A DNA stretch of 12,724 nt, taken from the NCBI GenBank assembly GCA_902802975.1, contig CADCOF010000295.1:1-12724 (forward strand), given 5' to 3'. Shown in pieces: positions 174 through 12,483 of the stretch. Made by a program: the position numbers and the translations under genes. The notes under the pieces are model-generated. The model made no database searches. It saw nothing but the letters and a program-made list of their open reading frames with translations, and was not told the origin of the DNA. Source of the DNA: an uncultured Ruminococcus sp. GTDB taxonomy: Bacteria > Bacillota > Clostridia > Oscillospirales > Acutalibacteraceae. The stretch's first letter is position 1; each line of letters starts with the position of its first letter.

Positions 174-614
174 ATGATCTATACTGATCTTACAAAAAAG
201 GCGTTAAGGATTTCTTTTGCTGCCCACCAAAACCAAATAGATATGGGTGGAATGCCTTATGTGTATCATCCATATCATTTGGCAGAACAGATGGACGATG
301 AATACTCGGTGTGTGTCGCTCTTTTGCATGATGTTGTAGAGGATGCGGGAGTAAGCATAGAAAAGTTGGAAGCGTGTGGATTCCCTGATGATATTTTGGA
401 TGCCGTGGAAATATTGACCCACGACAAACGTATGCAATACATGGATTATATTGCGATGGTGAAAACAAATGACCTTGCCAGAAAGGTTAAAATCGCTGAT
501 TTAAAACATAACAGTGACCTCAGCAGAATAGAGCGTTTTACAGAGCATACTTTTGAAAGAAACGCTAAGTATAACAAAGCATTGAAATTTTTGACAGATG
601 AAAGCGGTTTTTAG
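174..614 (+). CDS. Small stand-alone HD-domain hydrolase (RelA/SpoT/Mesh1 type)
   Basis: A 146-residue HD-superfamily metal-dependent phosphohydrolase, resembling the hydrolase half of RelA/SpoT and the single-domain Mesh1-type alarmone hydrolases, which remove the 3'-pyrophosphate from (p)ppGpp. Visible motifs are H18-Q19 near the N-terminus, YHP around H32, the H52-D53-x-x-E56-D57 metal and catalytic cluster, and IADLKHN with D109 and N113. The family's metal ligands therefore appear intact. No synthetase, TGS or ACT domain follows, and the length fits a domain on its own. The ATG at 174 is chosen because AAAGGAG at 158-164 lies 9 bases upstream; an in-frame TTG at 147 and an ATG at 165 overlapping the Shine-Dalgarno are less likely. 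The gene has its own terminator and so is probably separate from the downstream operon. Other small HD hydrolases of nucleotides share this fold, so the alarmone substrate is inferred. Confidence 0.85.
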   Translation: MIYTDLTKKALRISFAAHQNQIDMGGMPYVYHPYHLAEQMDDEYSVCVALLHDVVEDAGVSIEKLEACGFPDDILDAVEILTHDKRMQYMDYIAMVKTNDLARKVKIADLKHNSDLSRIERFTEHTFERNAKYNKALKFLTDESGF

Positions 615-844: not shown

Positions 845-1594
845 GTGAGTACAGAAGAGATGATCAACGATGCTGTGCCGGTGCAGTCTGAAATTGAAAA
901 TATCGAGCCGGATATCAGCGAACTTGTTTCAAAAATGAGCGTCGCGATAGAAGAAATTAAACATACAAATGAAGACTTCTTCAATAGAATAATCGAGATG
1001 CTCCAAAAAGAAGAGCCTTCCGAAAATAATGTGAAGAAAGAGAAAGATAGAAGTGAAGAACTTATTGGTTCTGTTGTATCAAAGATTGACAGTTTGGAAA
1101 ATGAAGTTAAATCGATTGCTGAAAAACAGGATCGCAATGATTCAAAGCTGATTCAGACGCTGCGTGAAAACGCTAATTTTCAGGTTCAGGTTCGCAGAGG
1201 TATGCAGCAGGATATAGACACATATAAAGAACAGTTGAGTCAGGAACGATTTGACGGTATTTTGAAGGATATTGCAACCATATATGTTGAGTATGGTTCT
1301 GTTTTGGATGATGAGTCAATGGCAGAACGTACAAAAAAGAATATTCGATCTCTTTTTGAACAGCTTGAAGATGTTCTTACCGATTACGGCGCGGAGATTG
1401 TGAGAAGCAATGAGGGAGAAGTAAGACGTACAAGAATCACAAAGGTGATAAACAAAATACCCGTTGACGATGAGCCGAAACATAATACAATTGCAAAAAG
1501 CCGCAAACCGGGCGTTGTACGAGACAGAGTTGTACTGTATCCCGAGTTTGTAGATATTTATGTATATGAGCCGAAGTGCGAAAGTGAGGAGTAA
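845..1594 (+). CDS. GrpE-like nucleotide exchange factor for the operon's Hsp70s
   Basis: A 249-residue acidic, highly helical protein. Residues about 40-140 are rich in E, K, N and Q with hydrophobic spacing typical of the long GrpE coiled coil. A helical segment follows (about 115-185). A basic stretch and a short beta-rich end at about 195-244 (VVLYPEFVDIYVYE) resemble the GrpE beta wing. GrpE dimers open the Hsp70 nucleotide cleft to release ADP. The assignment rests on this layout and on the position 4 bases ahead of an Hsp70 gene, an order also common in housekeeping operons; sequence similarity is weak by eye. It is longer than the typical GrpE of about 200 residues, mostly at the N-terminus. 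First gene of the operon, with the GTG start supported by its ribosome binding site. It could instead be an unrelated coiled-coil adaptor. Confidence 0.7.
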   Translation: MSTEEMINDAVPVQSEIENIEPDISELVSKMSVAIEEIKHTNEDFFNRIIEMLQKEEPSENNVKKEKDRSEELIGSVVSKIDSLENEVKSIAEKQDRNDSKLIQTLRENANFQVQVRRGMQQDIDTYKEQLSQERFDGILKDIATIYVEYGSVLDDESMAERTKKNIRSLFEQLEDVLTDYGAEIVRSNEGEVRRTRITKVINKIPVDDEPKHNTIAKSRKPGVVRDRVVLYPEFVDIYVYEPKCESEE

Positions 1595-1598
1595 AATA

Positions 1599-3230
1599 AT
1601 GAGTACATATGGTATAGATCTTGGAACAACTTATTCTTGTATAGCCTGCCTTGACAGAAACGGTAACCCCGAAGTTATAAGAAACCAGGCGGACGCAGGC
1701 GACACTCTCGCTTCTGCGGTTTATTTTGAAAGCGTTGATAACGTTGTTATCGGCAGCAGCGCAAAGGAAATGGTTGAAAGCGATGGCGATAGGGTAGTAC
1801 AGTTTGTAAAGCGTGAGATCGGGAAACCAAATGCACGTACATATCAATTTGACGGAAAAACATACACACCCGTTGAAATCAGCGCGCTTATTTTGGGTCG
1901 ATTGAAACAAATGGTAGAGGAACAGGGCGGCACGGTTGATGACGTAGTTATCACATGCCCGGCTTATTTCGGTCTTGAAGAGCGAAATGCAACAAAACAG
2001 GCCGGCGAGCTTGCCGGGATGAACGTGCTTAATATGATCAACGAGCCGACAGCAGCCGCTTTGTGTTACTGTGCAAGACAGTTCAGAGAAGAACGCACAA
2101 TTTTGGTATACGACTTGGGCGGCGGTACATTTGATGTTACCATAGTAAAAATGTCGCTTGAAATGAACGATCAAGGCAAAGAGGTCGAACGTGTTCGTGT
2201 TGTTGCAACGGGCGGTAATGATCTTTTGGGCGGAAAAGATTGGGACGACAAGCTTTACGATTTTATATTGAAGGCTTGCTGTGAAGAAAACGGTTTGACA
2301 CCCGATGAAGTTGAACTTGAAACACGTCAGATAATCAGAAGTCGTGTGGAGACAGCAAAAAAGAAACTGAGCAATTCCGAAAATGTAAAGATCAAAATCA
2401 ATGTGAACGGTTCAATGACAACGGTCAGTGTGTCAAGAGCGCAGTTTGAGGAGATGACTTCCGATAAAGTTGCTCAAACTATGACATACGTTGAAGATGT
2501 TCTTAGAAAGGCCGGAAATATTGATATCGATACAGTTTTACTGGTTGGCGGATCGACATTTATGCCAATGATCAGAAATGCCGTTGAAGCAAGATTCCCG
2601 GGCAAGGTTCAGCTTGAAGATCCGGATAGAGCCGTTGCAAAGGGTGCAGCAATTTGCGCCGGAATCATTGTTGATGAGATTCTTGAAGCACGTGCCGAAA
2701 ACAACGGCAGCGATGTTGGTGAGATCAAAGCTCGTTCATCTACCGGAAGCGGTCTGTCAATGGGGTTTGAATATGAAGATCAGACACCGCGTTCGTTTGG
2801 TCCCGGTGTCCTTGACCGCAGCGGTGATTATATTATCGACAATATAATCAAATTGGGCGACATAATGCCCGCTAAGGCAGTCAAGGAATATTATACTTCT
2901 TTTGACAATATGGAAATGATAGTTCTCCGTGCGTTTGAAAATATGTGCCTTGATGATAGCTTAACACCGTGTGTAACAAATGAGGGCGAACCTCAGCAGA
3001 CCGATCCTTCAAACAAAGTAAAGCTTTTGGGAGAGTTGGAAATGATTCTTCCGAAAAATACGCCCAAGGGAACTCCGATCGAGGTAACATTCATCGTAGA
3101 CGCGGCAGGTGTTTATGTAAAGGCACTTAATAAGAACAACGGCGAAAGTGTTGAGACTACCATCAAAATGAATTCCGATGTCGATATGGAAAATAGCAGT
3201 GTTACTCAGCTGAGCATTTCTGCCGAGTGA
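1599..3230 (+). CDS. Lidless Hsp70-family chaperone (DnaK-like, first copy)
   Basis: A 543-residue Hsp70 with a complete actin-like ATPase domain (about 1-360) and a beta-sandwich substrate domain (about 400-525), but no alpha-helical lid; DnaK is usually 610-640 residues. ATPase motifs are intact: GIDLGTTYS at 5-13 with D7, FVKREIG carrying the catalytic lysine, EPTAAAL from E149, DLGGGTFD at 172-179 with T177, and VGGST at 316-320. The substrate domain shows EVTFIVDAAGVYVKALNKNNG and TTIKM strands matching DnaK. Two departures are notable. The position of E. coli R167, which contacts the J-domain HPD aspartate, is N145. The conserved DVLLLD interdomain linker is replaced by a longer polar segment at about 360-390. 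The ATG at 1599 has GAGGAG 7 bases upstream and the gene starts 4 bases after the GrpE-like gene, so the two are probably translationally coupled. It is not the housekeeping dnaK. Confidence 0.9.
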   Translation: MSTYGIDLGTTYSCIACLDRNGNPEVIRNQADAGDTLASAVYFESVDNVVIGSSAKEMVESDGDRVVQFVKREIGKPNARTYQFDGKTYTPVEISALILGRLKQMVEEQGGTVDDVVITCPAYFGLEERNATKQAGELAGMNVLNMINEPTAAALCYCARQFREERTILVYDLGGGTFDVTIVKMSLEMNDQGKEVERVRVVATGGNDLLGGKDWDDKLYDFILKACCEENGLTPDEVELETRQIIRSRVETAKKKLSNSENVKIKINVNGSMTTVSVSRAQFEEMTSDKVAQTMTYVEDVLRKAGNIDIDTVLLVGGSTFMPMIRNAVEARFPGKVQLEDPDRAVAKGAAICAGIIVDEILEARAENNGSDVGEIKARSSTGSGLSMGFEYEDQTPRSFGPGVLDRSGDYIIDNIIKLGDIMPAKAVKEYYTSFDNMEMIVLRAFENMCLDDSLTPCVTNEGEPQQTDPSNKVKLLGELEMILPKNTPKGTPIEVTFIVDAAGVYVKALNKNNGESVETTIKMNSDVDMENSSVTQLSISAE

Positions 3231-3244
3231 TAGGGTGACAAAGA

Positions 3245-5434
3245 ATGGGGATAAAAATAGGCATTGATCTTGGAACGACCTTTTCGGCGGCTGCCGTTTT
3301 GGATAAACGTAAAGGCATTCCTGTTATCATACCGAATAGAGACGGAGAAAGAATTACACCATCGGTGATACAATTTCAGGGAAAAAACGTTATTGTCGGC
3401 AGTGAGGCAAAAGATGCTTATGAATCCGGCGAATCAGGCTGTACATCTGCGTTCAAACGCAGTATGGGCAGTGACGAGGTTTATTGTACTATCGATTCGG
3501 TGGGCTATACTCCTGTGAAGCTGTCGGCAATAATGCTGCGTCATATCAAAAATGAGGTTGAAGCAGTTACCGGTGAGACCGTCGATGAAGCTGTTGTAAC
3601 TGTACCTGCATATTTTTATCACAAAGAACGCAGTGCAACACTTGATGCGGCAAGATTAGCGGGGCTTAAAGTTAAGCAGCTTATCAATGAGCCGACTGCC
3701 GCTGCACTTGCGTACAGTATTGATCACTGGCGCGAGAACGCGCGGATAATGGTGTATGATCTTGGCGGTGGAACATTTGACGTTACTCTCATACAGATGA
3801 AGAGTGGCGGCAAGATTGAATCTCTGCGTACAAAAGGTGATCATACGCTTGGCGGCAAAGATTGGGACGCGCGGCTGACAAGCTTGATAGAAAGTAAAGC
3901 CGAGTTTGAAGCGGGACTCACCGTGAATGAGTATCCGCAGCTGCATAATGCAGCAATGAGAGCTGCAGAAAGTGTAAAGAAACAGCTTTCAACAAAAAAC
4001 ATAGCCTCTTTGAGATTGTCTTCCGAAGATTTTGGGAAATTCAAAACTGAGATCGGTATTGATGAATTTAACAAAGCAACTTTTGATTTGCTAAAGCGCA
4101 CAACTACTCTATGCGAGCAGTTACTTTCGGAATTGAATCTTTCTTGGAACGATATTACCGATATATTACTTGTCGGAGGTTCTACTCGAATGCGCCAAGT
4201 TTCGGCTTTCCTTAAGGAAAGAAGCGGTCACACGCCGCTGATGCATGTAAATCCCGATGAAGCAGTTGCTCTCGGTGCGGCTATATGTGTTTGGTCACCG
4301 CAGCCTGAGTATAATAAAGGCGTTGCGGGCAGCATATCTCATGAGAATCCCTCAAAACATACCGGCAGGGTCGGTACAGAAACAAAGCTGCACAACGCGC
4401 TTTCGATAATGCCTTCCGATGTGTGCGCTCATGCTATGGGTGTTATTGCAGTGAGTGCTGATGGAAAAAAGTATATTAACAAAACGATAGTGCCTGCCAA
4501 TAGTATTATCCCGGTGAAGTGTGCCGAAAGCTTCCATTATTACACGGGTGAAAAAGATGATAACGAATTGGAAATATATATGCTGCAAGGTGAAAAAACA
4601 CCGCTGGAAAGTGAAGTTATCGGAAAATATACTGTATGCGGAATCAAACATGATCCCAAAAACAACCCAACAGTTGTAAGCATACAATACAGTTATGATC
4701 TGAACGGCATGGTACACGTTCAGGTGCGCCAACAGGGAAAAAATGCAGACCTTAAATTAATTGAAGATCCTGTACCTAAAGATATGAGTAAATTTTCGCT
4801 GCCTGCCGAAAAGGTCACAGCCTCAGCCCAGCCTCAGCAGCTAAATGTTGTTATGGCTGTAGATGTATCGGGAAGCATGAACGGATATCCGTTAAAAGAA
4901 GCAAAAAAAGCAATGTGTCATTTTGTGGATAAACTGCGAAATTATCCGGGAACTCCCCAAGTAGGAGTTGTGGCCGTTTCCGACAGATCGATTGTAGTGA
5001 TGAAACTCGATAGTGATCTTAATAAGTGTAAGATCGCAATCAACTCTATAGAAGAAGAGATGGCGGGAATACTGAACGGAGCAGACCCGTTTGAAGATAT
5101 ACGCAGAATGCTCAGAAACGCAGTGGGAAGACGCTGGGGAATTGTTCTTGCTGATGGCAGATGGGACGATCAGCCAAAAGCGGTTCGCGCAGCTAAAATG
5201 TGCCATGAATTGGGTATAGATATCGTGGGGATAGGATTTGGTACGGCGGATGAGAAATTCTTGAAAGATATCAGTTCCGGTGAGATTGAATCTATGTTTG
5301 TAGGTTGTAACGAATTAGTCGAAAGTTTTGGGAAAATTGCGCAAGAGATCGGAGAAACGTCTCCGAAAAGATTGGGAAGATCAAACAAAGTTACAGCGGT
5401 GTCAACATGGCGAGCGATCGGTGAAACGCAGTAA
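3245..5434 (+). CDS. Hsp70-von Willebrand A fusion protein (second lidless Hsp70)
   Basis: A 729-residue fusion. Residues 1 to about 345 are an Hsp70 ATPase domain with GIDLGTTFS (D8), AFKR with K71, EPTAAAL from E149, DLGGGTFD at 172-179 and VGGST at 310-314. Residues about 385-515 resemble the Hsp70 beta-sandwich; no helical lid follows. Where DnaK has R167 this protein has Q145, and the linker before the beta-sandwich is long and lacks a clear DVLLLD. Residues about 530-705 form a vWA domain with the metal-site motif D540-V-S542-G-S544 and a second aspartate, D637, in LADG. The usual MIDAS threonine appears to be alanine (A613), so metal binding may be altered. vWA domains usually mediate metal-dependent protein binding. 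The tail is short and basic. The ATG at 3245 follows a weak AGGGTGA, 14 bases after the first Hsp70 gene ends. Confidence 0.9.
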   Translation: MGIKIGIDLGTTFSAAAVLDKRKGIPVIIPNRDGERITPSVIQFQGKNVIVGSEAKDAYESGESGCTSAFKRSMGSDEVYCTIDSVGYTPVKLSAIMLRHIKNEVEAVTGETVDEAVVTVPAYFYHKERSATLDAARLAGLKVKQLINEPTAAALAYSIDHWRENARIMVYDLGGGTFDVTLIQMKSGGKIESLRTKGDHTLGGKDWDARLTSLIESKAEFEAGLTVNEYPQLHNAAMRAAESVKKQLSTKNIASLRLSSEDFGKFKTEIGIDEFNKATFDLLKRTTTLCEQLLSELNLSWNDITDILLVGGSTRMRQVSAFLKERSGHTPLMHVNPDEAVALGAAICVWSPQPEYNKGVAGSISHENPSKHTGRVGTETKLHNALSIMPSDVCAHAMGVIAVSADGKKYINKTIVPANSIIPVKCAESFHYYTGEKDDNELEIYMLQGEKTPLESEVIGKYTVCGIKHDPKNNPTVVSIQYSYDLNGMVHVQVRQQGKNADLKLIEDPVPKDMSKFSLPAEKVTASAQPQQLNVVMAVDVSGSMNGYPLKEAKKAMCHFVDKLRNYPGTPQVGVVAVSDRSIVVMKLDSDLNKCKIAINSIEEEMAGILNGADPFEDIRRMLRNAVGRRWGIVLADGRWDDQPKAVRAAKMCHELGIDIVGIGFGTADEKFLKDISSGEIESMFVGCNELVESFGKIAQEIGETSPKRLGRSNKVTAVSTWRAIGETQ

Positions 5435-5445
5435 ATGCAGTAAAT
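5428..5445 (+). repeat. 9-bp tandem duplication across the stop codon of the Hsp70-vWA gene
   Basis: GCAGTAAAT occurs at 5428-5436 and again at 5437-5445. The first copy contains the TAA stop of the Hsp70-vWA gene. It looks like a small slippage duplication with no effect on the protein. The 59 bases between this stop and the next start contain nothing else notable apart from the ribosome binding site AGGAG (5478-5482). Confidence 0.8.
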
Positions 5446-5493
5446 AATGTAGGCATACCGCAAATGCATAATGTCCTAGGAGAAGTTAGTGTT

Positions 5494-8400
5494 ATGGCAA
5501 AACGAAATTATTTTGAATTACTGGGATTGGATTTTGATCCTCCCGAGAAAAACCAAAGACGCATCGAAAAGGCAATAAATGAGTGGAAGCGCAGAACAGA
5601 AGATATACTTGCAAACGAAACAGTTGAGTCTTATCGCCAGTCACTCAATGAGGAACTTTCTTTGTTCGAAGACATTGTGTCCGTTATGAATGACGTAAAG
5701 CTTAGAAATATAGAAGCAAGAGCATTGAAACAACTTAAGGTGCGCCAACTCGAGCAGATTTTGGATATATTGATGTTCGGAAGCGGTAATTCACCCATTG
5801 TAACAACAGCTCAGATACGCAGTGTCTGTTCTAAACTGAAACTCTCGCCCAAGACCGTTGAGGAAATATATACCTCAAAAGGATTTAGTATCAGCAAGCC
5901 TGCCGCACAACTTAATTTAGATGACTACTTTTTGTCATCTGTTATATACGGACATCTTTCAACTAACCTAAAGCGGCTGAAAACGCTTAATTCCACCAAA
6001 TATCCTTGGACTTCAAAAATTAATGATATATATGACTTGGCGTGTTTTTTCGGAGGAGGCAGTGAACGAGACAGAGTAGGTTTTCGTCGCCGCCGTGCTG
6101 GTGATCTTTATGCCATAATGGAAACATGGGCGTCTCGTCTTGCAAGTGATATGAGCGAAGAGGGACATTTGCTTGGCGATTTGTTCACCGCAGGAATGAC
6201 TCAGGTTTTTGACTGTGAAGCGAACAGGGAAAAATACGATTCGTCGCTAAAAAGAGATCAGCTCAAAGAGTTGTTTAGCTTGATAAAAGCTGCACCCGAG
6301 GAATTTAAACGAGACAGATATTTTGCCGAAGGTTGTATTGAGAAGATCAGGCGCAGTTTTCCTGAATATAATCTTGCTCTTGCCTTGTATAATAGGGAAG
6401 GTGGATTGTTGAAGGATCCTTACGAACCGTTTGACGCGTCGATACATATTATTTGTCCTTCGTGCGAAGCACCATATGAATTCAGAGATACAGAAACAGC
6501 TCAGCGTTCGGTGTGTACAGTATGCGGATCAAAGTTATATGTAAAATGTCCCAAATGCTCAAAGCCGGTTCCTGCTGCAGCAAAACGATGCTTATGCGGT
6601 TTCAATGTCCGAGAAATGCAGTATTTTGATGAATATGTAAATCAGTCTAGGACTGCGCTTTTGAGTAATGATCTTGATTCCGCACAGCGTTACTATAATA
6701 TGGCTGAATTATCATATCCTGGAAATCCCGAGCTATCGTCCTTAAAAAACGAGTTAGATGCACAAAAAGACAAGTATCAGCGACCAATTAACGAACTTCA
6801 CGCCTTGATCAATGCCAAGCGGTTTTGCGCTGCAAAAGAGCATGCGGATAAGCTTTCCGCATCCATGCCAAATTTAAATATTGAAAAAGAAAAAAAGCTT
6901 ATTGAAAGCCGACTAAATCAGGCACAGCAGATGATGCCGACGGCACAATTGCCGTTTGAACAACGCGCAAATGCCTGCATCGATGTGTTGGACATAGTTG
7001 CAGATCATTATTCAGCGACACAAATACTAAGCACGATACCTGTTTTACCGCCGGTTTCGCTAAATGCTGCCGCAGGTGGGGAAAAAGACATATTTTGCAA
7101 TTTATCATGGCTTCCTTCGGGTGATCGTGCGGTTACATATCGTATTGTTCGAAAAAAGAATACTCCACCTACAAGTATTACAGATGGTAAAGTAATTGCG
7201 TCGCAAATTAGCGAGACCGAATTTTGTGATAAAACGATAGTTTCTGGTATAAATTACGGATATGCGGTTTTTGCCCATAGAGCCAATGTCTTTTCAAAAC
7301 CGGCTGTGTGCAGCGCAGCGGTTTTCAGCGATCTTAACCGCAGGGAACTTAGTGCAGCTGCCGGCAACAATTCGTGCAAATTCAGTTGGGTGCTTCCTGA
7401 AAACAGTATAGGTGTGCGCGTTATCCGAAAAGAAGGAACCATACCTCCGGTTGTTCCGGATTCGTCGAGTGTTATTGCCTCACCAAAAGCTTTTGCACTT
7501 TTTAATGATGGAAATCTTCGCAACAATGTAACGTATGGATATCGCCTGCAGTGTGTTTATCCCTGTGACAGCGGTTTTGCCTATAGCGAAGGCATAACTC
7601 TTATGTTAACTCCCGAATATCCTCCGGAGGTGTTGCAGAATGTAACCGCAGGAACGTCAGGCAACAATGTTACGATAAGTTGGAAAAAATCGTTAAATGT
7701 AAAAACAACGGTTATTATCAAGGAAATAACAGATTCTGCATACTCATTGACGGATCACAATGTTATGGATATTTCCGATATTACTGAGGCTGTCGGAGGC
7801 GGAAATATCTTTGCAAATGTTGCGGGAATAGATGGCGAAGTTTCTTTTGTCATAGGTGAAAATACACAGCATACGCTCGCTGTATTGTCGCTTTCCGGCT
7901 CTAAAGGAATCGTATCGGAAGTGGTCAGAGTGTCCAGTGTATCAAAGTGCGAGATCGACCGCAAAAATACCGAGATCGTTGCAGGTAGGCTTTGTATTCG
8001 TCTTGCTAAGATCCCCGATATGTTGGAACGAATTCACTATTGTTTTGCTGTAAAAACAGAGGATACTGTTCCGTGGGCATCTGTAAACGATATAAGAAAC
8101 GGAACAATGCAAAGTGTATTTGTGGACGAATATCTGCGTGACGGAATGATGATGATTGAAAAACTTCCGGAAAAAGAACTATATGTTACTGTCATAGGAG
8201 AATACAGAATGGACGATGGTTCGGCAGTATACTCTGAGCCATCAAAAATCAGAATAAATAACAAACCTAAGCAATTATTGTCATATAAATTCTCATGGAT
8301 GGGAACGGGTCTGCTCAACCGTATTATGGAAAAGAGCTGCCGTTTGACCATTACATCAAATGGTAAAGACCTTCCCACTGTTTATGTGGTATGCCGGACT

Positions 8401-8625
8401 GACGGACATATCCCCATAAATTTGGACGATCCAAAAACAAAGATCATTCATCAAATAGAAGAAAAAGAGAATGCTTTTGTAAATGGAGAGTTTGTATACC
8501 GACTGCCCGACGATGCTGTAAAGAGTATGAATGTGGGAATGTATATTCGCTGCTTCACATCAGCCGATTATAAGGATGAGTTTGACCTATCTCCATCCGA
8601 TGTTGCAAGCTGTGTTGTAAAATGA
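5494..8625 (+). CDS. Degenerate J-like scaffold with zinc ribbons, TPR-like helices and FnIII-like repeats
   Basis: A 1043-residue multidomain protein. The N-terminus (NYFELLGLDFDPPE at 5-18, then a charged helix) has the feel of a J-domain start, but residues 33-35 are R-R-T where DnaJ has HPD. Helical sequence continues to about 310. A double zinc ribbon follows, with cysteines C321, C324, C341, C344 and then C352, C355, C366, C368. Residues about 377-490 look TPR-like (SNDLDSAQRYYNMAELSYPGNPE). From about 518 to 805 there are three fibronectin-III-like beta repeats, recognisable by recurrent W, Y-R and YGY patterns, and more beta-rich sequence extends to the end. No secretion signal is seen, so these repeats should be cytosolic, unlike typical FnIII exoproteins. 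The ATG at 5494 has AGGAG 11 bases upstream; an in-frame ATG at 5464 lacks a site. Its place after two Hsp70 genes suggests a client-recruiting or scaffold partner. The J-domain origin is an inference. Confidence 0.75.
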   Translation: MAKRNYFELLGLDFDPPEKNQRRIEKAINEWKRRTEDILANETVESYRQSLNEELSLFEDIVSVMNDVKLRNIEARALKQLKVRQLEQILDILMFGSGNSPIVTTAQIRSVCSKLKLSPKTVEEIYTSKGFSISKPAAQLNLDDYFLSSVIYGHLSTNLKRLKTLNSTKYPWTSKINDIYDLACFFGGGSERDRVGFRRRRAGDLYAIMETWASRLASDMSEEGHLLGDLFTAGMTQVFDCEANREKYDSSLKRDQLKELFSLIKAAPEEFKRDRYFAEGCIEKIRRSFPEYNLALALYNREGGLLKDPYEPFDASIHIICPSCEAPYEFRDTETAQRSVCTVCGSKLYVKCPKCSKPVPAAAKRCLCGFNVREMQYFDEYVNQSRTALLSNDLDSAQRYYNMAELSYPGNPELSSLKNELDAQKDKYQRPINELHALINAKRFCAAKEHADKLSASMPNLNIEKEKKLIESRLNQAQQMMPTAQLPFEQRANACIDVLDIVADHYSATQILSTIPVLPPVSLNAAAGGEKDIFCNLSWLPSGDRAVTYRIVRKKNTPPTSITDGKVIASQISETEFCDKTIVSGINYGYAVFAHRANVFSKPAVCSAAVFSDLNRRELSAAAGNNSCKFSWVLPENSIGVRVIRKEGTIPPVVPDSSSVIASPKAFALFNDGNLRNNVTYGYRLQCVYPCDSGFAYSEGITLMLTPEYPPEVLQNVTAGTSGNNVTISWKKSLNVKTTVIIKEITDSAYSLTDHNVMDISDITEAVGGGNIFANVAGIDGEVSFVIGENTQHTLAVLSLSGSKGIVSEVVRVSSVSKCEIDRKNTEIVAGRLCIRLAKIPDMLERIHYCFAVKTEDTVPWASVNDIRNGTMQSVFVDEYLRDGMMMIEKLPEKELYVTVIGEYRMDDGSAVYSEPSKIRINNKPKQLLSYKFSWMGTGLLNRIMEKSCRLTITSNGKDLPTVYVVCRTDGHIPINLDDPKTKIIHQIEEKENAFVNGEFVYRLPDDAVKSMNVGMYIRCFTSADYKDEFDLSPSDVASCVVK

Positions 8626-8633
8626 TCTATTGC

Positions 8634-8641
8634 AGAAAGGA
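8634..8641 (+). promoter_or_regulatory. Ribosome binding site supporting a TTG start for the GTPase
   Basis: AGAAAGGA ends 10 bases before TTG at 8652. An ATG at 8642 is in another frame and would give only a short peptide. A second TTG at 8658 would also keep all zinc-ligand cysteines, so the start is uncertain by two codons. Confidence 0.5.
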
Positions 8642-8651
8642 ATGATTATTT

Positions 8652-9758
8652 TTGAGATTGGTTTCAGAGGTGCTTTGCCCATATTGTTTAAAGGAACTGA
8701 GAAGTCAGGATCTGAGAATGGTCTGCAGTTCGTGCGGTGCACCGGCAGTGCCAACAAAAGCGGAATTGCTTTTGAAGAAGACGCCAAAATGTTCACGAAC
8801 AGGCTGCACAGGCTATGCCAGTGAACGAATTTGCAGTTATTGTAATGCTGCTCTGCCTCCTGATATTATGTCGTATTCAAAATATCTAAGATTCAGTATA
8901 CTTGGTATTACCGGTTCCGGAAAAACAAATTTTCTGACAACTATGCTTCACGAACTGCGTCACTCGCCCGATTCATATCTTGTTCCATCTCCAATGGACG
9001 AGTTGACAAAAGCTATGTTCGAAGAAAACGATGGAATCATTTATACGATGCACGAACCGGTTCCTGCGACACCGGCAGGTACAATGCCTCCTCCTCAGCT
9101 TTGGCGGCTAAAAGACAAGAATAAGATGACAGGATTGTTTATTCCGTCCTATTCTCTTACAATTTTTGACGGCGCAGGTGAGGATATAGAACATATCGAT
9201 CCCGTTGTAAGCCGATATATCAATGAGTCAAAGGTACTGGTAATTCTTATCGATCCTTTGGCACTGCCGGGCGTTGCAAGTACAATCGAAGAGGATATTC
9301 TGAATTGGTCTACAACTGCCGACCATGTCAATGATGCTTCTGCGAAAATGGTTGACGGTATTGCGGATTATGTAAGAAACAACTGCGGCCTTCCCCCCGG
9401 AAAGCTTATTAATAGAGATGTTGCCGTAGTTTTTACAAAAATAGATACAGTTAGAGAAAGCTTCGGCAGTGCAGTCGTAATGAACCCCAGTCCGCATTTG
9501 GCTAAAAAAGGTTTTGATAAAGCAGATGCAAACGCAGTCGATGCAGAGATAAGAGATTGGCTGCTAAGCAAAGGTGAAACATCGTTCTTAGACGCTATTG
9601 ATACTAATTTCAAGAGCAACCGAGTTCGATTCTTTGGAGTTTCAAGCTTTGGACAGCCGCCAACGGGAAATTCTCAGCTTGGAAAGGTAATGCCGCACCG
9701 CGTCCTTGATCCTCTGCTGTGGATGCTTTCAAAAGAAGGAATCATTCCGGTTGTTTGA
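8652..9758 (+). CDS. Zinc-ribbon TRAFAC-type GTPase
   Basis: A 368-residue protein. The N-terminus carries two zinc-binding units with cysteines C9, C12, C25, C28 and C47, C52, C61, C64. A P-loop GTPase domain follows: Walker A GITGSGKT at 85-92, a possible switch I threonine T144 in PAGTMPP, G3 motif D173-G-A-G176, hydrophobic strand VLVILIDPL, and G4 motif TKID at 262-265 in place of NKxD. The domain closes near residue 368 with no further module. The pattern matches the uncharacterised bacterial double-GTPase/TRAFAC-like families that occur beside GAP1-type proteins; I place it there from memory of family features. It probably acts as a GTP-controlled switch in the cytosol. The gene begins 26 bases after the J-like gene and is followed by the GAP1-like gene, its likely partner. 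Sharing zinc ribbons with the upstream protein hints at a common docking target. Confidence 0.8.
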   Translation: MRLVSEVLCPYCLKELRSQDLRMVCSSCGAPAVPTKAELLLKKTPKCSRTGCTGYASERICSYCNAALPPDIMSYSKYLRFSILGITGSGKTNFLTTMLHELRHSPDSYLVPSPMDELTKAMFEENDGIIYTMHEPVPATPAGTMPPPQLWRLKDKNKMTGLFIPSYSLTIFDGAGEDIEHIDPVVSRYINESKVLVILIDPLALPGVASTIEEDILNWSTTADHVNDASAKMVDGIADYVRNNCGLPPGKLINRDVAVVFTKIDTVRESFGSAVVMNPSPHLAKKGFDKADANAVDAEIRDWLLSKGETSFLDAIDTNFKSNRVRFFGVSSFGQPPTGNSQLGKVMPHRVLDPLLWMLSKEGIIPVV

Positions 9759-9813
9759 TTACATATTGCAAATATTCAGGCTTTCCGTAATAGAGCTTTT
9801 GAGGAGGGATACA

Positions 9814-12483
9814 ATGCTAAATCAGCTCATATACACCCGAAGTTCCCCTCATCGTGACTTGAAAAATAATGCTCAAGTTGTCAGAGGTGATGGGTTCGGT
9901 GTGTTTGCTGTAAGTGAGGGCTTAACACATATAAAAGATGCTAATTATGATTTTTTGTTGACCAGACTTGCCGTACCAAATTGTTCGAGAGAAAATTCAT
10001 CGGCAGGATTGGTACATTCGTATGACTATATATCTCTGGGCGGAGACATGTACGCATTTTCATTTGAGTTTGCTCGTCCGCATTGCCGTGAACCACGGAA
10101 AAACGGCAAAACTCATCGAGCAGGTACATATATAAAGCAGTGCTTTATCGGTTCTATCAGCGGATATCCTTTTTACTGGTTCGGTTCTCCTCAATGGAAT
10201 GCATATTTAAAAAGTGAAAATGATTATTATATGGATACCGAACCTAATCCTGTGCCGGAAATGCTCCCGGAAATTGACAGCGAACCTCAGACCGGTTCTA
10301 TCTCTGAAGAGGATGTGAGAGAATTTGTCCTCAACGGGCGTGGCAAAACACTCGTTGAGGGAGTATGGTTTTTACTTCACGAATATGAGAAGCCGGAAGA
10401 ACAAAGGAAAGTTCTTCTTATTAAAGATGAACCGAAAAATGTGGAGTTGTGGATTGCGGCGATTAATTATGCACTGCCTCAAGAACTTGCGCGAAAAATA
10501 ACTTTTTCAACAAACAGATCGAAGCTTGGCACTCAGGCAGATAAGGAGCTATTTTACTATACTGATGAGAACGGAAGGTTTTCCACACTGCAAAACCGCA
10601 GCACGAATCAGCAGCGACACCCATATAACATGATAGTTGGGTATCACCCTAAAGATGTATACTGTGCGTCGCTGAGACAAACTCCGAATTCCAATTATAC
10701 CATAATTGACGGCGTACAAAAAACAAGTACCGTGACAGTCGACGAGTCTGTAAATCAGCCATACTATAAGGCAATTGAAAAATTTGGCAAGGATCTTTTT
10801 GATTTCTGCGGAGCAGTTATGCCGGGTATCAATCCCGATAATATTTCGAGTGAAATATCTGATATGTTCAGTGCCTACAAATATCTCATGTCATCGGATA
10901 GCCGTGGTGAGAATTGGAAATACGATTATGCATTTGAAGCATTTTCACTGCTTACAAAATATGGAGTACCTACAAATCCTGCTGTGTGTACATATTTGCT
11001 GAGTGAAGGACTGGAATCTTACAAACGCTTGGGCAGAGAGGATTCTCATTATGGCTGCAGATACTTAATGATCCTGTATAAGATCGCAGCAGCATCAAAT
11101 CACCGTGATATGATAATAAATTTTTTTGAACGAAGTATAAAGAATGAGATTCGCAGAATAGATGCTGAGGATAACGCATTGACCGGTATTTGGGCAGCAT
11201 TGAAGACAGAACAGCTAAAAGAAATAAGACTTCCGCTGCTGATTGAGGTGTTTTCGGATGACAAGCTGAAAGCCTACTCTCATATGCTCAAAAATGCAAG
11301 TGATGATATTTTGCTGACAGTAGGTGAAATGTTTCTGACGCTGTGCGAAAGCCGTTATTCATCATTGTCCGAGATACTCAGAAGCAAGGAGCAGTACAGT
11401 TTTTTGTGCTATACACTGATGGCTGCAATAGATTGGCCATTTGTTCGCAAGAAACTTTTGGCTATAGTTGGTCGTTCACCAAGACTTTTTAATGCAACAT
11501 TGATTTCTATAGAACAGCGTCTTGAGAAAAAATCGCCCGAAAAAATGGATATGTGGATTTCTGTGTCAGCAGAAGCTGTTGGAAGAAGCGCGCTAGATAT
11601 AAGCATTCAAATAGCCAAGTCAGGAGCAGCCGACCGGACTACTGCTGAAAAAATTCTTGCCGGCGCAGTAAGAAACGACAGAGGCTATACGAGAGAAAGC
11701 ATGAATGCCGCAATGAATTTAATTCAAAGTGACGAAGAATTGTCAGGCGGCGCATATTTTTGCGCATGTGCGGAAGTATGTCCGCCCGGAGAAATGGATC
11801 GCCTCATCGAATTGATAATGGTATCAAATATGAGTGAAAAAGCTCAGAAAGCTGTATTTAACCGTATTGATTCAATCGTATCATTTGATCCGCCAGAAGG
11901 GTTTACAAAAGCAGGTTTTTTTGCATTGAAAAAATGGTCGGAGCAGCTTGGAATTACGTCAAAAAGCTGTGCATATTATGATCTGCGCCGAAAGTTGTCA
12001 TCAGATAAGCGAGAGCAGATTGCAGCGGAATCACTTAGCAGCTTTTTGATTTTAAACGAACCGCTAAAAAATGGTTTTATCGAAAGTCGTTGTTTCAGGG
12101 AGTTGGCTACAAATTGTGCCGGAATATGTCAGAGTGAAGTGCATATTTTATTCTTGTGTATGTTTGTATATGAAGACGAACGTCTGCGCAGACGGTTTAC
12201 CGATGCATATGTCTCGTGCATTTTTCGTCTTGCGCACAGCGGCGATGTATTAAAATCATTATTGAATCTATGCGAACCGTTTGTTTATGAATATAAAATT
12301 CGAGGAAGAACCGAAGAAGAAGTAAATGTTGCTTCGGACTATCTTGAAAAAAGTGTGAGAGGTCATTTGAAAAAAGTACATTTGCCACAGCTTGAAGAAA
12401 AGCTTGCCAAATATACGGAGTACGACGATGACGTAAAGAGAACTCTTTTGGAGCTTTGCAGAGCTGCGGGAAGCACACGTTAG
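9814..12483 (+). CDS. GTPase-associated protein 1 (GAP1)-like protein
   Basis: An 889-residue protein. The N-terminus (QLIYTRS at 4-10, then GFGVFAVSEGL at 27-37) matches my recollection of the GAP1 N-terminal domain, which opens with a QLxYTS-like strand and a GF-x-V-x-A-x-S-x-GL stretch. The middle segment has W213-IAAINYALPQELA followed by ITFSTNR from I229, like the GAP1 middle domain (W..a...LP..la..l.fsT). The remaining part, about 350-889, is helical, rich in leucine and charged residues and suggestive of alpha-solenoid repeats. No catalytic motif of a nuclease, protease or transferase is seen. GAP1-type proteins are known only from their recurrent linkage to GTPases in predicted conflict systems, and here a GTPase gene precedes it by 55 bases. 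The ATG at 9814 has GAGGAGG 6 bases upstream, the best site in the operon. Last gene of the operon; its function is unknown. Confidence 0.75.
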   Translation: MLNQLIYTRSSPHRDLKNNAQVVRGDGFGVFAVSEGLTHIKDANYDFLLTRLAVPNCSRENSSAGLVHSYDYISLGGDMYAFSFEFARPHCREPRKNGKTHRAGTYIKQCFIGSISGYPFYWFGSPQWNAYLKSENDYYMDTEPNPVPEMLPEIDSEPQTGSISEEDVREFVLNGRGKTLVEGVWFLLHEYEKPEEQRKVLLIKDEPKNVELWIAAINYALPQELARKITFSTNRSKLGTQADKELFYYTDENGRFSTLQNRSTNQQRHPYNMIVGYHPKDVYCASLRQTPNSNYTIIDGVQKTSTVTVDESVNQPYYKAIEKFGKDLFDFCGAVMPGINPDNISSEISDMFSAYKYLMSSDSRGENWKYDYAFEAFSLLTKYGVPTNPAVCTYLLSEGLESYKRLGREDSHYGCRYLMILYKIAAASNHRDMIINFFERSIKNEIRRIDAEDNALTGIWAALKTEQLKEIRLPLLIEVFSDDKLKAYSHMLKNASDDILLTVGEMFLTLCESRYSSLSEILRSKEQYSFLCYTLMAAIDWPFVRKKLLAIVGRSPRLFNATLISIEQRLEKKSPEKMDMWISVSAEAVGRSALDISIQIAKSGAADRTTAEKILAGAVRNDRGYTRESMNAAMNLIQSDEELSGGAYFCACAEVCPPGEMDRLIELIMVSNMSEKAQKAVFNRIDSIVSFDPPEGFTKAGFFALKKWSEQLGITSKSCAYYDLRRKLSSDKREQIAAESLSSFLILNEPLKNGFIESRCFRELATNCAGICQSEVHILFLCMFVYEDERLRRRFTDAYVSCIFRLAHSGDVLKSLLNLCEPFVYEYKIRGRTEEEVNVASDYLEKSVRGHLKKVHLPQLEEKLAKYTEYDDDVKRTLLELCRAAGSTR

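Follow-up and report, generated by a model that had tools for sequence, protein, structure and literature searches.

A six-gene set with two lidless Hsp70s, a zinc-ribbon GTPase and a GAP1-like protein in an uncultured Ruminococcus: a probable divergent member of the GAP1-N2 DO-GTPase systems

A contig of 12,724 nucleotides from an uncultured Ruminococcus sp. (GenBank assembly GCA_902802975.1, contig CADCOF010000295.1), hereafter the window, carries six genes for a GrpE-like protein, two Hsp70s, a scaffold protein, a zinc-ribbon GTPase and a protein resembling GTPase-associated protein 1 (GAP1). This set, or core, is considered here as a probable relative of the computationally defined GAP1/DO-GTPase systems. 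The window is the whole of contig C295 of a metagenome-assembled genome (MAG) of 1.98 Mb in 333 contigs, and it ends 241 bases past the GAP1-like gene. An earlier note on this DNA, made from the sequence alone, had described six co-directional, closely spaced genes behind one promoter. Indeed, six open reading frames (ORFs) lie there on the + strand: the GrpE-like protein at 845-1594 (GTG start), Hsp70 a at 1599-3230, Hsp70 b at 3245-5434, the scaffold at 5494-8625, the GTPase at 8652-9758 (TTG start) and the GAP1-like protein at 9814-12483, with gaps of 4, 14, 59, 26 and 55 bases for these starts. A consensus scan gave a sigma-70-like promoter candidate (TTGACA, 18 nt, TATTAT; 11/12 matches, which is not evidence of function) at 726-755 on the + strand, and seven promoter-like sites in 560-900 against 1.5 expected. 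No terminator-like site was found on the + strand between the six genes, and a single transcript over all of them is plausible. A simple hydropathy scan of the six proteins found no hydrophobic segment over threshold in any of them. The earlier note had identified most of the parts correctly.

Two Hsp70s, one fused to a vWA domain, had been claimed, and both assignments can be made with certainty from sequence. Hsp70 a matches Pfam PF00012 at 285 bits (E=1e-84) and Hsp70 b at 334 bits (E=2e-99; cut-off 20.6), and residues 534-683 of Hsp70 b match the vWA model PF00092 at 57.8 bits (cut-off 23.8). The vWA fusion is present in 7/7 aligned sequences, and the catalytic motifs are kept in both proteins. 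Behind the nucleotide-binding domain (NBD), each Hsp70 has a region resembling the beta part of the substrate-binding domain (SBD). In comparisons with the DnaK-like Hsp70 that this genome also encodes, the C-terminal part of Hsp70 a gives E=6e-8 and the SBD-like part of Hsp70 b E=5e-8, versus 0.11 for the vWA part as a control. Hsp70 a stops soon after this region and Hsp70 b runs on into the vWA domain. As judged from their sequences, both Hsp70s are lidless, with no room for a normal alpha lid, and vWA takes the place of the lid in Hsp70 b. The DxSxS motif of the vWA domain is kept in 9/9 sequences examined; the expected threonine of the metal-ion-dependent adhesion site is not evident on inspection by eye. 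A separate Hsp70 (G000:C260) of the same genome was taken as the housekeeping DnaK. In genome G377, a third, NBD-only Hsp70 (L034:14845-15972, - strand) is inserted into the operon.

The two proteins that would serve these Hsp70s are less easily recognized. The GrpE-like protein, with a coiled coil followed by a strand region, matches the NCBIfam GrpE model PRK14162 at E=1.1e-4, far under that model's cut-off. Its AlphaFold2 model is of low confidence (mean predicted local distance difference test score 61) and contains one helix of 92 residues, another that is shorter, and strands. The top Foldseek match of this model is a GrpE-DnaK model at E=0.055, and the GrpE-containing entries 8gb3, 1dkg and 3a6m are found within the first 18 matches; none of the 53 matches at E<=10 reaches E=0.001. 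A PDB profile search with the family, for which orthologues were aligned, returned no GrpE but weak, mostly coiled-coil-like matches, and a distant homologue at locus L035 scores 22.3 bits against Pfam GrpE (cut-off 25.8). The GrpE-like factor of the earlier note is a weaker assignment than the two Hsp70s. The scaffold had been described as a J-like zinc-ribbon/TPR/FnIII protein. Its FnIII region is borne out by a PDB search with the family alignment (A9; Fn3 E=3.2e-4, a titin chain E=6.7e-4), with no Pfam fn3 match on the window protein. The double zinc ribbon (DZR) scores 20.7 bits, below the Pfam cut-off of 27.3, and TPR was not found, as neither TPR nor DnaJ domains match in Pfam at E<=1. 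The J-like domain was assigned by position and sequence look, and the HPD motif is present in 0/12 sequences within the first 120 residues (one of the 12 being L111, a locus without GAP1). Without HPD, canonical J function is unlikely.

The GTPase is probably of the DO-GTPase kind, with a double zinc ribbon. The CxxC pairs, GxTGxGKT (P-loop), FDGAGED and TKxD are conserved in 4/4 aligned GTPases, and the window protein (P0005) finds a second GTPase of genome G028 (P0008), which passes both DO-GTPase1 and DO-GTPase2, at E=3.9e-10. In G003, an in-frame stop lies near the N-terminus of the GTPase frame (L015:5005-6108, - strand), and the gene there may start later or be damaged. The GAP1-like protein, also named in advance, was confirmed by a GAP1-M match (PF20014, 28.1 bits, cut-off 24). 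GAP1-M is found at E<=1 in 5/5 family members, and two further orthologues score 19.2 and 18.3 bits, under the cut-off. Profile-profile comparison of the family with two GAP1-N2 proteins (71 and 79 bits) gave E=2.2e-10 over columns 3-493, and the window protein is, by sequence, a divergent GAP1. Neither the GTPase family nor the GAP1 family gave a useful match when searched against the PDB. Two arms that hydrolyse nucleoside triphosphates are encoded, as had been proposed.

The core is a conserved unit where it occurs. The six genes keep the same order in 7/7 close loci long enough to show it: the window, L015/L019 (G003), L017 (G028), L023 (a Lachnospiraceae MAG), L024 (Aerococcaceae NML190073), L025 (a Clostridia MAG) and L034 (G377). 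These span at least three genera (g1, g8 and g233) with the genera of L023-L025 left uncounted, and GAP1 identity to the window goes down to 27% among them. A chance neighbourhood of six functionally unrelated genes is already contradicted by this shared order at such low identity, and is scarcely credible. In G004, G010, G047 and L022, the locus is cut by contig ends and the visible part fits the same order. Among distant loci, L035 and L077 keep the gene order and L037 has one Hsp70. The proportion of synonymous differences (pS) between the window and G003 is 0.64-0.70. Nonsynonymous-to-synonymous ratios (pN/pS) of 0.06 (GTPase), 0.07 (Hsp70 a), 0.19 (Hsp70-vWA), 0.22 (scaffold), 0.25 (GAP1) and 0.32 (GrpE-like protein) indicate purifying selection on the core in the window's genus.

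Occurrence is patchy. GAP1-like homologues were found in 6/198 relatives, including the own genome, four of these six being among the 22 listed genus genomes (G000, which is the own genome, G003, G004 and G010), and, with a profile, in 6/398 phylum genomes, again including the own one; a scan of named genomes gave seven loci, three of them records of G003, G004 and G047. A GTPase profile found 8/391 class genomes, own included, so the core is rare, and three of these matches are weak (G399, G481 and G550, E above 1e-12). The co-occurrence check proposed by the earlier note gave a divided answer: the order holds in the close loci and at L035 and L077, and Hsp70 and GAP1 partners surround the GTPase in four of the eight carriers (G000, G377, G425 and G444), but tblastn showed no Hsp70 or GAP1 beside the more distant GTPase relatives of G315, G399 and G481 (L036, L038 and L039; the eighth carrier, G550, was left out of this count). 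A GAP1-like protein of G647 (L073:12324-15026, + strand) has none of the known partners within 20 kb. No GTPase relative was found in phage records or viral contigs. Plasmids gave two Rhodococcus records at 22% identity for the GTPase and 273 records for Hsp70-vWA, all below 60% identity and none covering 80%, as any Hsp70 would give. A mobile-element origin was therefore rejected.

The combination closely recalls a published class. In GTPase-centric systems with DO-GTPases and GAP1, predicted by Kaur et al. (2020; PMC7159879), an HSP70/GrpE theme makes up about 14% of GAP1-N2 systems according to the main text. A subset of these has a second HSP70, without a peptide-binding domain, and the theme includes an FnIII protein to which a DnaJ domain or TPRs are typically joined. 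As presented there, the class is purely computational (PMC7159879). The window resembles this theme in an HSP70, a GrpE-like protein, a second HSP70, an FnIII protein with a J-like N-terminus, a two-zinc-ribbon GTPase and a GAP1 gene 3′ of the GTPase, and its relatives share a second GTPase with four N-terminal transmembrane segments. The link to GAP1/GTPase conflict systems drawn by the earlier note, which had not named the class, is thereby supported. Unlike the class, the window has GAP1 and GTPase proteins that fall below the GAP1-N2 and DO-GTPase models, and a J-like domain without HPD. Both its Hsp70s keep an SBD-beta-like region, in contrast to the second HSP70 without SBD of Kaur et al.; an NBD-only Hsp70 is present in L034 as the third copy there. 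To our knowledge, the vWA domain fused to Hsp70 is not mentioned by Kaur et al. (PMC7159879). The six-gene set is probably a new member of the published class, and the vWA-for-lid fusion and a linkage to HerA and nuclease genes, described below, mark a variant.

The canonical DnaK-DnaJ-GrpE machine shares with the window Hsp70 NBDs with catalytic motifs and a GrpE-like partner, from which the window differs by the missing alpha lids, the missing HPD and the vWA domain at the lid position. If the core were instead an alternative Hsp70 machine that carries out ordinary protein quality control on particular clients, with the GTPase and GAP1 as assembly factors and no role in conflict, this would account for the two catalytically equipped Hsp70s, the GrpE-like factor, the strong purifying selection and the lack of nuclease and HerA matches in the genus carriers reported below. 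This explanation is nevertheless distinctly unlikely, as the patchy occurrence (GAP1 in 4/22 genus genomes, the GTPase in 8/391 class genomes) is unlike that of a housekeeping system, the J-like domain has no HPD, and toxin and immunity genes are linked to the core in other genera.

In relatives, the core is part of a larger locus. A second DO-GTPase is encoded 5′ of the GrpE-like gene in G010, G028, G377 and L023-L025; that of G028 (P0008) has four hydrophobic N-terminal segments and matches DO-GTPase2 at 37.5 bits (cut-off 27). In G000, G003 and G004, the search for it gave only a cross-match to the zinc-ribbon GTPase. Genes for a HerA-family ATPase, a nuclease, a YezG-like protein and a transglutaminase-like protein follow GAP1 in L023, L024 and L025. 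The nucleases match Endonuclea_NS_2 at 117-128 bits (cut-off 27), the YezG-like proteins score 25.5-41.7 bits (cut-off 21.7) and the transglutaminase-like proteins 19.3-30.9 bits (cut-off 23), one of these three being under the cut-off. The same four genes occur in G377, with transposase-like ORFs between GAP1 and HerA, and in G047 on a contig other than that of the core, where adjacency is not visible. HerA, nuclease and transglutaminase genes, the three tested there, adjoin the core in G028 as well. In all, HerA, nuclease and transglutaminase are present in 6/6 of the close relatives from other genera that were open to a search (L022, with its contig of 3.6 kb, was too short for one), and adjoin the core in five. 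By contrast, neither HerA nor nuclease gave a match at E<=0.001 in any of the four genus carriers (G000, 83.6% complete; G003 and G004, 99%; G010, 97%), the transglutaminase gave only weak partial matches there, and the core is flanked by other genes in G003 and G004. The earlier statement that no recognizable toxic effector is present is correct as regards the window, whereas in relatives a cassette of nuclease and immunity genes is found. ORFs that look transposase- or recombinase-like by eye lie around and inside the G377 locus (L034 and the flanks L079 and L080).

In the main text of Kaur et al., nucleases of the NucA type (Endonuclease NS) belong to another system, System 3, and transglutaminase-like peptidases are reported as rare, in VMAP proteins; this main text contains HerA only in one reference title and YezG not at all (PMC7159879). 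Literature searches that covered mostly titles and abstracts and few subscription journals found no paper on the linkage of this core to HerA or a nuclease, and a search for the combination of DnaK-like, von Willebrand, GrpE and anti-phage likewise found none.

The HerA family has a life of its own. It was found in 36/391 class genomes at E<=0.001, 16 of them strong (E<1e-40), and HerA as a strict part of the present system was rejected, as 14 of the 16 strong carriers lack the core GTPase. Genes downstream of HerA were scanned at nine of these 14 core-less loci (L103, L104, L105, L107-L110, L114 and L115; L106, L111, L112, L113 and L116 were not in the scan). Toxin-type nucleases over cut-off lie 3′ of HerA in 4/9 (Colicin-DNase/WHH in L105, GH-E in L107, WHH/Colicin-DNase in L110 and LHH in L115), and SUKH or SUFU proteins, which we take to be immunity families, are over cut-off in 4/9 (L105, L107, L108 and L115). 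Sub-threshold toxin-like matches occur at L103, L109 and L114, and L104 has only an Ig-like protein downstream. With the core-linked loci, the pairings comprise Colicin-DNase/WHH with SUKH, LHH with SUKH, GH-E with SUFU and NS_2 with YezG-like. Six control loci with weak HerA matches, namely ordinary DUF87 ATPases and one pilus-type ATPase, showed no toxin or immunity family among ten neighbours, three of which have no Pfam match and one of which is on the opposite strand. HerA and its toxin-type nucleases and immunity-type proteins possibly form a toxin system of their own in core-less Clostridia. One conserved ATPase with varying toxin- and immunity-type genes resembles, by analogy, the polymorphic toxin systems. 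Some core-less HerA toxin loci lie near dynamin-like GTPases or Hsp70. The HerA-family ATPases of L103 and L111 have an Hsp70 nearby. Big_2 Ig-like proteins stand beside the HerA ATPase at L083:6615-8183 and L104:324-1967, and a blastp homologue of them at L103:5945-7546.

In polymorphic toxin systems, a YueA-like FtsK/HerA ATPase drives the type VII secretion system (T7SS) (Zhang et al., 2012; PMC3482391), and the relatives of the window likewise have a nuclease and an adjoining immunity protein near an ATPase of the FtsK/HerA superfamily. The window itself is unlike these systems, with no toxin domain and adjoining immunity gene, both of which L023, L024 and L025 have. No T7SS-type protein was recognized among the proteins scanned, and the words Hsp70, DnaK and chaperone are absent from the text of that paper (PMC3482391). 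It could be supposed that the locus serves polymorphic-toxin deployment between cells, with the HerA ATPase and membrane DO-GTPase exporting the nuclease, the Hsp70 arm keeping it export-competent, and the window's lineage having lost cargo and ATPase. The recurrence of the HerA family with different toxin- and immunity-type genes, seen at none of the six control loci, agrees with this. However, the Pfam scan, the only search made for export signals, revealed no export domain on the three nucleases, the hydropathy scan found no hydrophobic segment over threshold in the HerA protein (P0020) or the nuclease (P0021), and secretion features are lacking in most such systems according to Kaur et al. 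(PMC7159879). Deployment between cells is doubtful, though not far-fetched. A related proposal, which we regard as speculative and moderately unlikely, is that the window holds the chaperone half of an undescribed toxin-deployment machine, the other half being the HerA ATPase, the membrane DO-GTPase, the transglutaminase-type protein and an exchangeable toxin/immunity pair, and that the rumen Ruminococcus lineage dropped the toxin half and kept a neutralizer of incoming toxins or a re-targeted switch.

Kaur et al. argue for intracellular action (PMC7159879), and their proposal of anti-phage defence, in which a switch assembles on the invader and leads to containment or cell death, is a tentative possibility for the present locus too. 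Besides this published prediction for the class, the nuclease adjoining the core in relatives and the patchy distribution speak for it, as may a weak PADLOC match of Hsp70 a to the candidate defence model PDC-M61B (28.6 bits, E=1.4e-7, residues 143-329), although this was read as a shared NBD. PADLOC gave no strong or full-length match on the six proteins, only partial weak ones, and those of the GrpE-like protein (JetC, ZorA and LmuB; at most 20.3 bits) were read as coiled coil. YezG-like and SUKH immunity proteins mostly accompany toxins aimed at other cells, an association that argues against defence from phages. The absence of GTPase relatives from phage and viral records is neutral on this point.

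Another predicted system has much of the same inventory. Type III-A CoCoNuTs combine an Hsp70-like NBD and SBD, vWA, a coiled coil, a zinc ribbon and a GTPase in one predicted operon, and some include an EssC-, VirB4- or HerA-like ATPase (PMC11090510). As far as that article describes them, they are unlike the window in being built on an McrB-like GTPase with an McrC-like protein, and in that their Hsp70s have degenerate Walker-like motifs, whereas the motifs of the window Hsp70s are present. Neither an McrB-type GTPase nor an McrC-like partner was matched by Pfam or PADLOC in the six proteins. Type III-A CoCoNuTs may thus be regarded as a parallel case in which Hsp70-like, vWA and EssC/VirB4/HerA-type ATPase components occur together.

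With moderate confidence, we favour the reading of the core as a divergent member of the GAP1-N2 DO-GTPase systems of the Hsp70 theme, working as a two-step switch whose usual effector is absent here. From the sequences we infer the following steps, in which the six products would act in one physical complex. First, the FnIII scaffold would bind a client, either a foreign protein or a partner effector, and its HPD-less J-like domain would recruit both lidless Hsp70s to the scaffold but not stimulate their ATPase in the classical way. How long the Hsp70s hold may depend on the GrpE-like protein, and contacts with the client or partners may be made by the vWA domain that stands in for one lid. 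Second, the zinc-ribbon GTPase and GAP1 would read the state of the chaperone complex and commit it. In other genera, the neighbours of the switch are a HerA-family ATPase, a transglutaminase-type protein, a membrane DO-GTPase and a nuclease together with its immunity protein, so that the usual output would probably be a toxic nuclease, released or delivered under control. As nuclease and HerA were not found in the window's genus and the switch is kept, its role there could be client capture alone, neutralization, or control of an effector encoded elsewhere. Most likely, the core is the switching part of a system that controls a toxin, retained here although the usual effector is missing.

Several observations weigh against this reading. 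The window GTPase scores only 19.8 and 14.3 bits against the Pfam DO-GTPase models (cut-off 27), missing both cut-offs, and the GAP1-N2 model PF20013 gives no match on the window GAP1 (P0006). The SBD-like regions of Hsp70 a and Hsp70 b do not match each other (0.072). HerA is not tied to the core, the core GTPase being present in only 2/16 strong HerA carriers (G377 and G444), and the cassette was not seen at distant cores: neither HerA nor the nuclease was found in G425, no nuclease was found in G444, whose HerA-like gene lies on a contig apart from the core, and L077 has no HerA gene within 20 kb. Finally, the MAG is 83.6% complete and the contig stops just past GAP1, where the cassette lies in relatives. 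The HerA/nuclease linkage offers a concrete and testable output in the form of a nuclease and its immunity partner, and the genus in which no nuclease was found is a natural experiment, so that the question of what is controlled by GAP1/DO-GTPase/Hsp70 systems can be put directly to the test. Lidless Hsp70s, one with vWA for a lid, together with an HPD-less J-like domain, would also be an unusual way to run Hsp70.

At 174-614 (+ strand), 5′ of the six genes, lies a gene for a small HD-domain protein that resembles the N-terminus of the RelA/SpoT hydrolase; it scores 46 bits against TIGR00691, far under the cut-off, and its position is taken by other genes in G003. A repeat is present in inverted copies at the contig ends (16-79 and 12625-12690). 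These copies were rejected as the ends of an element, since their core motif recurs in L052 and L053 of sister genomes, and they probably represent a dispersed repeat at which the assembly broke off.

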